Shown here piece after piece: positions 15,804-31,298 of a stretch of 64,000 nt of DNA; the stretch's first letter is position 1, and each line of letters starts with the position of its first letter. The notes beneath the pieces are model-generated. The model did no database searches. It had not been told where the DNA came from and worked only from the letters and a program-made list of their open reading frames with translations. Both the position numbers and the translations under genes were made by a program. Source of the DNA: Candidatus Solirubrobacter pratensis (GTDB lineage Bacteria > Actinomycetota > Thermoleophilia > Solirubrobacterales > Solirubrobacteraceae); the NCBI RefSeq assembly GCF_000425945.1, contig NZ_AUEK01000003.1:434001-498000 (forward strand), in the 5' to 3' direction.

Positions 15804-16472
15804 ATGCCAGATCCCACGCGCGCCCGCGTGCGGCGCATCCGGGACCGCCTCCGCGAGGTCTACGGGCGCCCGCTCGCGCCCCCGCACGGCCAGGGCCTCG
15901 ACGAGCTGATCCTGACCGTCCTCTCCCAGTCGACCAACGACCGCAACCGCGACGTCGCGTTCCTGCGGCTGCGCGAGCGCTTCGGCAGCTGGGAGGCCGT
16001 GCGCGCCGCGCCCAACGCCGAGGTCGAGGAGGCGATCCGGCCCGGCGGGATCAGCAAGGTCAAGTCCGCCCGGATCCAGCAGATCCTCGAGGCGATCGGG
16101 GATCCGCTCAGCATCGACCACCTCGCCGGCGCCACCGTCGAGGAGGGCCGCGACTACCTCGTCGCCCTCCCCGGCGTCGGCCGCAAGACCGCGGCCTGCG
16201 TGCTCCTGTTCGCCTACGGCAAGCGCGACGTCCCGGTCGACACCCACGTCTCACGCGTGGGCACGCGCCTGGGGCTGTTCCGCGAGAAGGCGCCGTTCGA
16301 GGAGCTGCACGACACGATGCTCGCGATCACGCCGCGCGGACAGGAGCTCGAGCTGCACGTCAACCTGCTCCGCCACGGCCGCAGGACCTGCCACGCACGC
16401 CGCCCCGACTGCGGCGGATGCGACCTTCTGCGCATGTGCCCGTTCGGCTACAATCTCAGCCAAGCAGACTGA
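15804..16472 (+). CDS. nth: endonuclease III (DNA glycosylase/AP lyase)
   Basis: Bifunctional glycosylase that removes oxidised pyrimidines and nicks at the abasic site. The helix-hairpin-helix LPGVGRKTA with the catalytic Lys, the catalytic Asp in [14 protein letters not shown], and the 4Fe-4S loop C-x6-C-x2-C-x5-C ([17 protein letters not shown]) are all present. At 222 residues it is of normal length. The last codons overlap the regulatory region of dnaK: the inverted repeat at 16453-16475 spans the nth stop codon, so nth transcription runs into the heat-shock operon unless it stops or is repressed. Confidence 0.94.
16426..16454 (+). promoter_or_regulatory. putative dnaK promoter
   Basis: A -10 hexamer TACAAT at 16449-16454 matches the consensus at five of six positions. 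A weak -35, TTCTGC, lies 17 bases upstream at 16426-16431. The box is inside the 3' end of nth, and its last two bases are the first bases of the dnaK operator. The same register is seen at clpB. Confidence 0.6.
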
Positions 16473-16475
16473 GAT
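16453..16475. promoter_or_regulatory. HAIR-like operator of the dnaK operon
   Basis: Arms ATCTCAG (16453-16459) and CTGAGAT (16469-16475) are a perfect inverted repeat with a 9-base spacer; the symmetry extends inward to AGC/ACT-type bases. The clpB leader has the same element with 18 of 23 positions identical. The known HspR site is CTTGAGT-N7-ACTCAAG. This element can be written CTCAGY-N7-ACTGAG, keeping the inner AGT/ACT and the N7 spacing but not the outer bases. hspR is the last gene of this operon, so autoregulation is likely. Confidence 0.7.
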
Positions 16476-16495
16476 CTTGTAGAGGAGTCCAGCAC

Positions 16496-18400
16496 ATGGC
16501 AAAGACCATCGGCATCGACCTCGGAACCACGAACTCGTGCATGGCCGTCCTGGAGGGCGGCGAGCCGACGGTGATCGAGAATTCAGAGGGTGGGCGCACC
16601 ACCCCGTCGGTGGTCGCCTTCACGCAGAGCGGCGAGCGCCTGGTCGGCACCGTCGCCAAGCGCCAGGCGGTCACCAACCCGACGAACACGGTCTTCTCCA
16701 TCAAGCGCTTCATGGGCCGCAAGGAGGCCGAGGTGCGCGAGGAGGAGTCGATCGTCCCGTACACGGTCGTCTCCGGCAGCGGTGGTGACGCGCGCGTGGA
16801 GGCGGGCGGCAAGGAGTACTCGCCGCCGGAGATCTCCGCGATGATCCTGCAGAAGCTGAAGGCCGACGCCGAGGCCTATCTCGGCGAGAGCGTCGACAGC
16901 GCGGTCATCACGGTCCCGGCGTACTTCAACGACGACCAGCGCCAGGCGACCAAGGACGCCGGCCGCATCGCGGGCCTGGACGTCAAGCGCATCATCAACG
17001 AGCCGACCGCGGCGTCGCTCGCCTACGGCCTCGACAAGGAGAGCGACCAGACGATCCTCGTCTTCGACCTCGGCGGCGGCACGTTCGACGTGTCGGTGCT
17101 CGAGATCGGCGACGGTGTGTTCGAGGTCAAGTCGACCGCGGGTGACAACCACCTCGGCGGCGACAACTTCGACAAGGCGATCGTCGACTGGCTCGCGGCC
17201 GAGTTCAAGCGCGACCAGGGCATCGACCTGACGCAGGACAAGATGGCCCTGCAGCGGCTCTACGAGGCCGCCGAGAAGGCCAAGATCGAGCTGTCCTCCG
17301 CGCAGGAGACGCAGATCAACCTGCCGTTCATCACGGCCGACGCCGCCGGCCCGAAGCACCTCGACGTGCGCCTCACGCGCGCCAAGCTCAACGAGCTGGC
17401 CGGCGCGCTGATCGAGCGCGTCGTCGGCCCGGTGCGCCAGGCGATCGACGACGCCAAGGACAAGGGCGTCAAGGAGATCCAGCACGTCGTCCTCGTCGGC
17501 GGCATGACGCGCATGCCCGCCGTCCAGGAGAAGGTCAAGGAGCTCACCGGCAAGGAGCCGCACCGCGGCGTCAACCCGGACGAGGTCGTGGCCGTCGGCG
17601 CCGCCATCCAGGCCGGCGTCCTGGCCGGCGACGTCAAGGACGTGCTGCTGCTCGACGTCACCCCGCTCACGCTCGGCATCGAGACCAAGGGCGGCGTGAT
17701 GACCAAGCTGATCGAGCGCAACACGACGATCCCGACGCGCAAGTCCGAGGTCTTCTCGACCGCCGAGGACAACCAGCCATCGGTGGAGATCCACGTGCTC
17801 CAGGGCGAGCGCGAGATGGCCTCCTACAACAAGTCGCTCGGCAAGTTCCAGCTGACGGGCATCCCGCCGGCGCCGCGCGGGATCCCGCAGATCGAGGTCG
17901 GCTTCGACATCGACGCCAACGGCATCGTGAAGGTGTCGGCGAAGGACCTCGGCACGGGCAAGGAGCAGAAGATCGAGATCAAGTCCGGCTCCGGGCTCTC
18001 CGACGACGAGATCAGGAAGATGGTCTCCGACGCCGAGTCGCACGCGGACGAGGACAAGCGCCTGCGCGAGCTCGCCGAGGCGCGCAACGCCGGCGAGTCG
18101 GCCGCCTACAACGCCGAGAAGCAGCTCAAGGACCTCGGCGAGCAGGTCGACGAGGCCTCCAAGCGCGAGATCCAGGACGCCGTGAAGGACCTCAACGAGG
18201 CCGTCAAGGGCGAGGACGCGGAGGACATCCGCGCCAAGACCGACCGCCTGCAGACCGCGTTCCACCGGGTCTCCGAGACCATGTACGAGCGCGCGCAGGC
18301 CGCCCAGCAGGCCGAGGCCTCCGGCAACGGCGCCTCCGGCGACGGCGCCGGCGCCGAGGAAGAGGTCGTCGACGCCGAGGTCGTGGACGAGCAGAAGTAA
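16496..18400 (+). CDS. dnaK: molecular chaperone DnaK (Hsp70)
   Basis: ATP-driven chaperone of 634 residues that binds exposed hydrophobic peptides in the cytosol, cycling with DnaJ and GrpE. Hsp70 signatures are clear: [17 protein letters not shown] at the N-terminus, [19 protein letters not shown], and [14 protein letters not shown]. The substrate-binding domain begins near [16 protein letters not shown]. The C-terminal tail is acidic and Gly/Ala-rich, ending in [11 protein letters not shown] rather than the proteobacterial EEVKD form. A ribosome site (GAGGAG) precedes the ATG. It is the first gene of the four-gene heat-shock operon and abuts grpE with no gap. Confidence 0.98.
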
Positions 18401-18991
18401 ATGGGCGACGAGACGATCCACACCGACCAGGTGGTCGCGGAGAACGGGGAGTTCTCCGCGGCCGCGCCGCCCCATCCGGCGGCGGCGGGAACGGGCGAGA
18501 CGTCGTTCGGCGACGCGGAGGCCCCCGCGGCCTCCGAGCTGGCCGCCGTCCAGTCCGACCTCACCGACCTGACCAAGCAGCGCGACGACTACCTCGCGCT
18601 CGCGCAGCGCACGCAGGCCGACTTCGAGAACTACCGCAAGCGGATGGCGCGCGAGAACGCCGCCGCGACCGACCGCGGGATGGCGAAGCTGGCCAAGGAG
18701 CTGCTGCCGGCGCTCGACCACCTCGAGCTCGCGCTCAAGGCGGCTGAGGGTCACGAGGACGTGGTGAAGGGCTTCGCCATGGTCGCGGGCGAGATCAAGG
18801 CCGCGCTGGGGCGCGTCGGGATCCAGCCGTTCTCGCCCCAGGGCGAGGCGTTCGACCCGAACGAGCACGAGGCGATGGCCCAGCAGCCGGTCGACGGCGC
18901 CGAGTCCGGCACCGTCGTCGAGGTCTACCAGTCCGGCTATCGCATCAACGGCGCGGTGCTCAGGCCCGCGCGCGTCGTCGTGGCGGCGTAG
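18401..18991 (+). CDS. grpE: nucleotide exchange factor GrpE
   Basis: Releases ADP from DnaK. 196 residues: a variable, acidic/Ala-rich N-terminus of about 45 residues, a long coiled coil ([25 protein letters not shown] region), and the beta-rich head ending with [24 protein letters not shown], the family signature. Its ATG follows the dnaK TAA directly, so the two are probably translationally coupled. It is followed by dnaJ after two bases. Confidence 0.96.
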
Positions 18992-18993
18992 CG

Positions 18994-30770: not shown

Positions 30771-30872
30771 GGTCCGACTCGAGCGGCTCGCCGGCCGCGC
30801 CGGCGCGAGGCTTTCCCGAATCTTTCCCCGCTGCTCGCCGGCGCTTGGGGGGCCGCGCGCGACCGTGGGGGC

Positions 30873-31232
30873 ATGTCCTTCAAGACTCCCACCGCCATCG
30901 CCGCCGGCGTCGTGTGCGCGCTCGCGGGCGTCGCCGGCGCCGCGCTCGCCCTACCGTCCTCTCCGCCGCAGCCGGCCGCCGCGGTCGCCACTGCCACGCC
31001 GTCCCCGCAGGTCCGCACGGAGACCGTCCGCCCGACGATCCACGTCGAGCGGCGCGCCCGCGGCCGCGACGACGCGCCGTCCCGGGCGGCCACGCCGGTC
31101 CGCCCGCGCCCGGTCCCGGCCGTGGCGACGGTCGACGACTCCGGCCACGACCGCGGGTTCGACGACTCCGGCCGCCACGGAGGCTCGGGCCGCCACGGCG
31201 GCGGGCGCGGGCGCGGCGGCGACGACGACTGA
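30873..31232 (+). CDS. small secreted protein with Gly/His/Asp tail
   Basis: 119 residues: signal peptide or anchor (TAIAAGVVCALAGVAGAALA), a Pro/Thr/Arg linker, and a tail with SGHDRGF, SGRHGGSGRHGGGRGRG and a final GGDDD. The architecture and tail match the product of 30423, so the two probably arose by duplication. The tail looks suited to metal or polyanion binding. No homologue with known function comes to mind. It is followed by the regulated clpB promoter. Confidence 0.65.
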   Translation: MSFKTPTAIAAGVVCALAGVAGAALALPSSPPQPAAAVATATPSPQVRTETVRPTIHVERRARGRDDAPSRAATPVRPRPVPAVATVDDSGHDRGFDDSGRHGGSGRHGGGRGRGGDDD

Positions 31233-31248
31233 AGCGCTGAGGCCGAGG

Positions 31249-31277
31249 TTGATGCGGCAACCGCGGCGAGCTAAGAT
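31249..31277 (+). promoter_or_regulatory. putative clpB promoter
   Basis: -35 TTGATG (31249-31254), 17-base spacer, -10 TAAGAT (31272-31277). The operator begins four bases after the -10 start, exactly the offset found at dnaK. Confidence 0.65.
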
Positions 31278-31298
31278 CTTAGTCAACCCGACTGAGAT
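31276..31298. promoter_or_regulatory. HAIR-like operator of clpB
   Basis: Arms ATCTTAG (31276-31282) and CTGAGAT (31292-31298), one mismatch, 9-base spacer; with inner bases the arms extend to ATCTTAGTC and GACTGAGAT. Nearly the same as the dnaK element at 16453-16475, with the same position relative to the -10 box. Likely HspR target. Confidence 0.7.

Follow-up and report, generated by a model that had tools for sequence, protein, structure and literature searches.

Which regulator reads the two inverted repeats that stand before dnaK and clpB in the soil bacterium Candidatus Solirubrobacter pratensis? Both lie in a 64,000-nt stretch of its genome (hereafter the window), one (ATCTCAG-N9-CTGAGAT) 5' of dnaK-grpE-dnaJ-hspR and the other (ATCTTAG-N9-CTGAGAT) 5' of clpB, and 19 of their 23 bases are identical. 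The Streptomyces operator of the heat-shock repressor HspR, HAIR, is given as CTTGAGT-N7-ACTCAAG (PMC6102357), and the available text of PMC2687793 gives the Streptomyces coelicolor consensus as TTGAGY-N7-ACTCAA, with dnaK, clpB and lon among the HspR targets. No published HspR operator for the group studied here was found among the papers listed in the literature searched, in which HspR did not appear together with Coriobacteri- or Rubrobacter and which took in only a minority of subscription papers. Here we report the sites, their conservation, the gene set behind them and their linkage to hspR, as computed from genome sequences. Both elements very probably serve as operators for the HspR whose gene follows dnaK-grpE-dnaJ and belong to a variant HAIR regulon; the altered operator appears to be a real, modest variant of the known HspR system.

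Elements and neighbouring genes

Re-reading of the sequence confirmed both elements at the coordinates of the original prediction (Table 1), which had counted 18 rather than 19 agreeing positions. Its consensus, CTCAGT-N7-ACTGAG, proved too narrow because the base after ACT is free and AGAT is conserved; the half-site conserved across relatives is ACTNAGAT, and the motif was redefined as the 23-bp inverted repeat ATCTNAGT-N7-ACTNAGAT (ATCTNAGTN7ACTNAGAT). The HAIR geometry (N7 spacer, inner AGT...ACT) is complete in the clpB element (AGT-CAACCCG-ACT), and the inner bases of the dnaK element (AGC-CAAGCAG-ACT) are one off from it. Neither element has the classical arms CTTGAGT and ACTCAAG.

The hspR gene, whose identity was borne out by an NCBIfam model, directly follows dnaJ as the last of four genes that probably form one autoregulated operon. 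In several other genomes, clpB was seen close behind hspR. The dnaK element overlaps the last codons of nth, so that its conservation within the genus Solirubrobacter is partly coding.

Table 1. Features of the window, with positions counted from its first base
Feature	Position	Strand	Basis
nth (endonuclease III-like)	15804..16472	+	ORF; TIGR01083 110.5 bits, below cut-off 211.7
Putative -10 box TACAAT	16449..16454	+	Sequence; overlaps left arm of dnaK operator
Putative HspR-type operator, dnaK operon, ATCTCAGC-CAAGCAG-ACTGAGAT	16453..16475	+	Sequence; 1 mismatch to ATCTNAGTN7ACTNAGAT
dnaK	16496..18400	+	TIGR02350 989.6 bits, cut-off 822.55
grpE	18401..18991	+	GrpE models, best E 1.1e-34; cut-off reached by none of the 25 matches listed
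dnaJ	18994..20103	+	TIGR02349 398.9 bits, cut-off 377.2
hspR	20107..20574	+	NCBIfam NF047375 117.5 bits, cut-off 105; Pfam MerR_1
Putative -10 box TAAGAT	31272..31277	+	Sequence; overlaps left arm of clpB operator
Putative HspR-type operator, clpB, ATCTTAGT-CAACCCG-ACTGAGAT	31276..31298	+	Sequence; redefined motif matched perfectly
clpB	31317..33878	+	TIGR03346 1295 bits, cut-off 1232.1

Both putative -10 boxes start four bases before their elements, as originally noted, but this shared register is a trait limited to the genus Solirubrobacter. TACAAT has the same offset from the dnaK repeat in loci L049, L190, L191 and L193, and clpB of a same-genus genome (G157, locus L349) has TAATAT at an offset identical to that of TAAGAT in the window. 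Within the order Solirubrobacterales, the -10-like box at dnaK lies at offset -4 to the repeat in Solirubrobacter and at +6 in most rows. Outside Solirubrobacter, the inner left half at dnaK mostly gives way to -10-like sequence (commonly 3-4 mismatches), which renders the palindrome lopsided there. The dnaK architectures read all have a -10-like box that overlaps or abuts the repeat, as might be the case if the repeat belonged to the promoter, as a sigma-factor signature, or to the transcript, as a 5' hairpin, and were not a repressor site. This is most improbable, because the box takes two positions while the repeat stays, and because 109 and 125 bases separate the repeat from the clpB start downstream of it in L119 and L121; both would be expected if a protein bound the repeat as a site of its own.

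Distribution of the motif

In the window alone, the pattern of the original prediction had three matches at ≤3 mismatches versus 1.33 expected, a number reached by 17 of 100 shuffles and thus not significant, which would suit a mere chance likeness of two inverted repeats. The redefined motif had two matches at ≤1 mismatch, reached by 0 of 100 dinucleotide-preserving shuffles (largest, 0); since the redefinition came after sight of both elements, a fair test has to be made genome-wide. Across the 6.64-Mb genome, the redefined motif was found with ≤1 mismatch at three places, namely clpB, dnaK and a ClpE-like gene (reversed control, 0), and with ≤3 mismatches at 20 places versus 4 for the reversed pattern. 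The original consensus was too loose at ≤3 mismatches (80 versus 54 in the control); one of its 1-mismatch matches (C4:509827), with three mismatches to the redefined motif, was set aside because no heat-shock gene was seen behind it. The best match to the classical CTTGAGT-N7-ACTCAAG in this genome had two mismatches, at one place (C4:29194), and at ≤3 mismatches there were 59 places versus 135 in the control.

Among 121 genomes of the order, the redefined motif occurred at 89 places with ≤1 mismatch, versus 0 for the reversed control in all 121; at this threshold, 55 genomes had at least one match and 66 had none. It stood before clpB, lon, a ClpE-like gene, groES or hsp20 at 45 of the 49 annotated places, which comprised two batches (28 of 30 and 17 of 19); groES accounted for five and hsp20 for two, and no heat-shock gene could be named behind the remaining four. 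Assignments of lon, a ClpE-like protein, one GroES and two Hsp20 were backed by family models, and four ClpE-like assignments by partial ClpB matches with coordinates (G017, G111) or by a ClpB match alone (G534, G198).

At dnaK, ATCT-N12-C-N2-AGAT was present in 68 of 70 non-redundant Solirubrobacterales upstreams (reversed, 0; shuffled, 0.1) and in 0 of 19 of an actinomycete-type set; TTGAGT-N7-ACTCA was present in 13 of these 19 and in none of the 70. The 70 upstreams were obtained from 84 rows by removal of one short and 13 duplicate rows, and 3/60, 29/80, 1/39 and 0/18 loci of four sets had been dropped for an absent dnaK start. The right half ACTNAGAT was also found at dnaK in 27 of 62 upstreams from further families within the class and phylum, against 1 for the reversed control and a mean of 1.05 for shuffles, and this half is therefore not confined to the single lineage originally supposed. 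The scans of the genome and of its relatives that the original prediction had proposed were thus both favourable, and with the order-wide and dnaK counts standing against it, a chance likeness has almost no probability left.

A site with ≤2 mismatches was found in 15 of 30 lon upstreams (a count without a shuffled control) and was absent at this threshold from the other 15, among them the cut loci L383 and L395, possibly read at the wrong place. At clpB, the best site had at least five mismatches in 15 of 30 upstreams, including the cut and misread locus L116, whose genome has a perfect site. The lon site of the genome studied here, CGTTGAGT-N7-ACTCAGAT, has a near-classical left arm and three mismatches to the variant and equally three to the classical HAIR. 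Both this site and the clpB site of G017, ACTTGAGT-N7-ACTGAGAT, are hybrids of one classical and one variant arm, which ties the variant to HAIR. The predicted HspR site set comprises dnaK and clpB in the window, with lon joining it only as a hybrid in the same genome and as the variant in relatives. The altered operator originally proposed therefore stands in its HAIR geometry and in its marking of dnaK and clpB (lon in relatives), but the hybrids speak against a clean replacement; a classical HAIR elsewhere, named beforehand as evidence to the contrary, was found in part, the lon site being one base off TTGAGY-N7-ACTCAA.

The elements could instead serve a different regulator of the heat-shock response, be it HrcA/CIRCE, CtsR, ClgR or some unknown protein, with HspR merely nearby, and the matches before groES and hsp20 fit such a view, given that groES belongs to HrcA and hsp18 to RheA in Streptomyces according to the available text of PMC2687793. 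We consider this unlikely: the elements share their geometry and inner bases with HAIR, their arms grade into its arms, and the targets dnaK, clpB and lon match the HspR set of Streptomyces. HrcA/CIRCE is a heat-shock operator that differs from HspR/HAIR in sequence and protein. Its repeat, GCACTC-N9-GAGTGC, is absent from both window elements as read; CIRCE-like repeats occur at groES of the same genome and not at dnaK or clpB. That groES (C2:54472) has two such repeats and none of the 20 motif matches (≤3 mismatches) nearby, so that HrcA apparently acts through a site of its own. The boxes of CtsR and ClgR also look different from these elements.

HspR and related systems

The preferred assignment to HspR is in line with the Streptomyces system as far as the sources at hand describe it, in which hspR likewise lies behind dnaK-grpE-dnaJ and an N7 repeat with inner AGT...ACT precedes the promoters of the dnaK operon, clpB and lon. 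The variant is best read as a HAIR of unchanged geometry, each arm of which ends in AGAT where actinomycetes have CAAG, with the base after ACT free; the ClpE-like gene is a further difference in predicted targets, as are groES and hsp20 in some relatives of the order. In Helicobacter pylori, HspR is described as binding a HAIR-like motif in cooperative dimers over about 70 bp, the repeat likewise being central in promoter operators, whereas it acts there on the cbp, gro and hrc promoters and the motif is compared with CTTGAGT-N7-ACTCAAG (available text of PMC6102357).

HspR was matched in 182 of 199 genomes of the class (E up to 1e-10). The solved structures closest to the window HspR by sequence are those of GlnR, and no HspR-DNA structure was among the nine sequences matched in the structure search. 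As described in the available text of PMC9249791, GlnR of Firmicutes is also a MerR-like winged helix with an N7-spaced palindrome (TGTNA-N7-TNACA), but has another half-site and another signal. A gapless alignment of HspR residues 13-70 to GlnR placed the wing, in which residue 55 (window numbering) is mostly Leu or Met with AGAT arms and Arg with AAG/AAC arms, the exceptions being L086 (Leu with CAAC) and L105 (Arg with AGAT). The link between residue 55 and the operator was tested on a DnaK tree whose 103 rows comprised 22 of the 84 Solirubrobacterales, all 62 others and all 19 of the actinomycete type; 85 rows with either arm type and L, M or R at position 55 were counted, and the other 18 were left out. 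The operator and residue 55 each changed three times, giving two independent pairs on supported branches and three on all branches, with significance out of reach (a sign test needs at least six independent changes). Residue 55 went the same way as the operator in one supported pair and showed no difference in the other. Residue 51 was rejected: it separates the two reference groups, but any difference it shows in the tree pairs runs counter to the operator.

Wings of MerR-type proteins are described as touching the minor groove, and a correlation between wing and bases of the site can occur (PMC5045206, PMC5859096, as far as available). We tentatively entertain, as possible rather than probable, that the outer operator arms and the protein wing changed together deep in Actinomycetota, Leu/Met-55 (...TRLYS) going with ACTNAGAT and Arg-55 (...GRRYS) with ACTCAAG. 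Residues 37, 40, 41, 53 and 55 would then set the arm that is read, the lon and G017 clpB hybrids would be intermediates tolerated by one HspR, and the -10 box would have shifted by roughly one turn of the helix relative to an operator that stayed in place.

Proposed regulon

For binding, repression and release by heat, we infer the following scheme. A dimer of HspR, as a MerR-type winged helix, would bind ATCTNAGT-N7-ACTNAGAT where it overlaps the -10 box and would keep RNA polymerase off dnaK-grpE-dnaJ-hspR, and hence its own gene, as well as off clpB, the ClpE-like gene and lon. This block would give way on heat or in the presence of unfolded protein. In Streptomyces, heat releases HspR via loss of the DnaK-HspR complex, and by analogy the same route may operate here.

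This study provides an HspR motif that can be put to use in a large and little-studied section of Actinomycetota, where the classical HAIR had no match with fewer than two mismatches in the genome studied here and TTGAGT-N7-ACTCA none at dnaK in the 70 upstreams of the order. The predicted HspR regulon also gains a ClpE-like ATPase. Because two operator types are paired with two HspR wing types, reciprocal exchange can test a change of specificity in a MerR-type repressor.

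The genome that contains the window (G000, C2:434001-498000) comprises 6.64 Mb in 28 contigs. Both elements of the original prediction were confirmed in the sequence, and the boxes TACAAT (dnaK) and TAAGAT (clpB) start four bases 5' of them as claimed; recounting gave 19 of 23 agreeing positions between the elements instead of 18. The gene downstream of the second element is clpB. DnaK, DnaJ, HspR and ClpB passed the NCBIfam cut-offs, and GrpE matched models with scores under the cut-offs. The HspR shares 79-83% identity with that of five Solirubrobacter records, and the rows nearest to the window in a DnaK tree were one genome of the same genus and one named Solirubrobacter. 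At its 3' end, an nth-like gene runs into the dnaK operator, which places bases under both coding and regulatory constraint. Because the operator covers the last nth-like codons, coding accounts for part of its identity within the genus; conservation across the order is not explained by this overlap alone, since the arms persist where the flanking sequence differs.

Proposed operator elements and genes with their coordinates (window positions, unless a contig (C) of the same genome, G000, or an extracted locus (L) is named)
Feature	Coordinates	Remarks	Basis
nth-like gene	15804-16472		
dnaK operator element ATCTCAGCCAAGCAGACTGAGAT	16453-16475	20 bases before dnaK	sequence
dnaK, grpE, dnaJ, hspR	16496-20574	downstream of first element	
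clpB operator element ATCTTAGTCAACCCGACTGAGAT	31276-31298	18 bases before clpB	sequence
lon site CGTTGAGT-CGCCTAG-ACTCAGAT	L348:1583-1605	starts 106 bases before first ATG (1689)	
ClpE-like ATPase gene	L170:3371-5455 (G000:C6)	outside window; 694-codon ORF	
Perfect operator copy	C6:231347-231369	just 5' of ClpE-like ORF	
Second ClpB-like gene	L169 (G000:C14:73082)		

The motif was rewritten as ATCTNAGT-N7-ACTNAGAT after inspection of its matches and of relatives, and is therefore partly shaped by the same data. At up to one mismatch it matched the own genome before clpB (0 mismatches), at C6:231347 (0) and before dnaK (1), with 0 matches for the reversed control; at this threshold 55 of 121 genomes of the order had at least one match. 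Across all 121 genomes, 89 places were matched vs 0 for the reversed pattern. A heat-shock gene lies behind 45 of the 49 places that were annotated: among the 30 loci listed, the gene 3' of the place was clpB (21), groES (4), ClpE-like (2), hsp20 (1) or unnamed (2), and at 19 further places clpB (7), lon (6), ClpE-like (2), groES (1), hsp20 (1) or unnamed (2), family models having been applied to the own lon, the own ClpE-like protein, one GroES and two Hsp20 examples.

The dnaK upstream sequence (up to 300 bases) was examined in 165 loci. Among 70 non-redundant Solirubrobacterales upstreams, ATCT-N12-C-N2-AGAT was present in 68 (reversed 0, mean of 20 shuffles 0.1), exact ACTNAGAT in 43 (shuffle mean 0.8) and TTGAGT-N7-ACTCA in none. 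The actinomycete-type set (19 upstreams from families f29, f32, f34, f38, f42, f61, f63 and f65) had TTGAGT-N7-ACTCA in 13 and ACTNAGAT in none. Of 62 upstreams that belong to further families of the class and phylum, 27 had ACTNAGAT (reversed 1, shuffle mean 1.05), 8 had ATCT-N12-C-N2-AGAT and 1 had TTGAGT-N7-ACTCA. When the single best site per row was taken, 32 of these 62 rows had the AGAT arm, with a left half that is TTGACA, a sequence able to act as a -35 box, in 18 and starts with ATCT in 8. Four public records titled Bifidobacterium breve (L222, L238, L239, L258) carry Solirubrobacterales-type dnaK-hspR loci, and their titles are very likely wrong.

The box four bases 5' of the dnaK element proved to be a feature of Solirubrobacter rows and not of the order. 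In 81 Solirubrobacterales rows with ATCT (duplicates kept; offsets counted from its A), a [TC]ANNNT box starts at +6 in 64; matches at -4 (19 rows) and +18 (54 rows) are mostly arm bases (CAAGAT, YAGATT). TACAAT at -4 occurs in the window, L049, L190, L191 (duplicate L192) and L193, all Solirubrobacter rows and all lacking the +6 box. The two positions are 10 bases apart, about one helical turn.

A changed operator for HspR is supported at dnaK across the order and not at every target, as near-classical arms occur at the own lon and at clpB of a relative, G017 (ACTTGAGT-CAGTCCC-ACTGAGAT). The own lon site differs by one base from the minimal HAIR consensus of S. coelicolor, TTGAGY-N7-ACTCAA, given in PMC2687793; at unchanged distance, the two further genomes of this genus have ATTTGAGC and ACCTGAGT as lon left arms. 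In L388 and L394, lon has a site closer to the classical HAIR than to the variant. One HspR therefore seems to tolerate both arm types. A site with up to 2 mismatches was found in 15 of 30 lon upstreams and none in the other 15, and clpB upstreams (n = 30) had a site with up to 2 mismatches in 12, with 3 in 3 and only with at least 5 in 15; these raw counts include the cut loci L116, L383 and L395, probably read at the wrong place. At L111, L112 and L120, the clpB start codon is 2 to 5 bases 3' of the operator and the spacer contains a TACACT box, which suggests a leaderless mRNA. The own genome has a second ClpB-like gene (43% identity over the N-terminal query) on contig C14; the 20 matches of the motif in this genome (up to 3 mismatches) all lie on other contigs.

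The ClpE-like gene, which lies beyond the window, is predicted to be under HspR control. Its product has an N-terminal CxxC...CxxC region, two AAA domains, a ClpB-type C-terminal domain and a UVR motif scoring slightly under the Pfam cut-off, a make-up that we take to be that of ClpE. Gene and operator are also present in the genomes G017, G111, G198 and G534, and in weaker form in G107. A GTTGC...GCAA palindrome lies close 5' of lon in 5 of 30 upstreams (L379, L380, L384, L385, L387; reversed control 0) and 5' of two ClpE-like genes (L332 and L143, which are one gene, and L350); an additional regulator perhaps acts on these protease genes. The own groES (L398) has two CIRCE-like repeats, and therefore this genome seems to keep the usual split, with HrcA controlling groE and HspR controlling dnaK, clpB and lon. 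An HspR-type operator precedes groES in five relatives of the order (G065, G029, G182, G515, G093; loci L314, L318, L319, where groES is divergent from another gene with a closer start, L321 and L364), and a change of groES regulator between them and the own genome is possible.

HspR was aligned in 165 rows grouped by taxonomy, not motif (84 Solirubrobacterales, 19 actinomycete-type, 62 others), and mapped without gaps onto B. subtilis GlnR, whose arginines contact bases according to PMC9249791. Q33 and R36, invariant in both reference groups, would occupy the positions of these arginines, which fits the inner bases common to both operators. Positions differing between Solirubrobacterales and actinomycete-type rows include 37 (mostly Met/Ile vs Gln/Thr/Ile), 40 (mostly Ala/Gln vs Arg), 41 (Arg/Lys vs mostly Leu), 53 (Thr vs Gly/Asn/Ser) and 55 (Leu in 84/84 vs Arg in 19/19). 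Residue 53 aligns with GlnR Arg46, described there as a wing residue touching the minor groove, and residue 55 lies two residues further. Among the 62 other rows, residue 55 is Leu (28), Met (3) or Arg (1) with the AGAT arm (32 rows), Arg (12) or Leu (1) with an AAG or AAC arm (13 rows), and Leu (7), Arg (7), Met (2) or misaligned (1) with other arms (17 rows). On the DnaK tree, operator arm and residue 55 each change 3 times; 2 independent pairs have support, one in which the residue goes with the operator and one in which it is the same on both sides. With so few pairs, the link is explicable by common ancestry alone, and caution also follows from GlnR, where altering the minor-groove wing residue hardly affected affinity in the same source. 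That operator arms and wing residue changed together is, on this evidence, rather doubtful.

Taken over the genomes compared, there is strong support for an HspR regulon whose predicted operators are of a variant HAIR type. Within the known HspR/HAIR system, this variant is better described as a HAIR whose outer preference has shifted than as a new kind of site.
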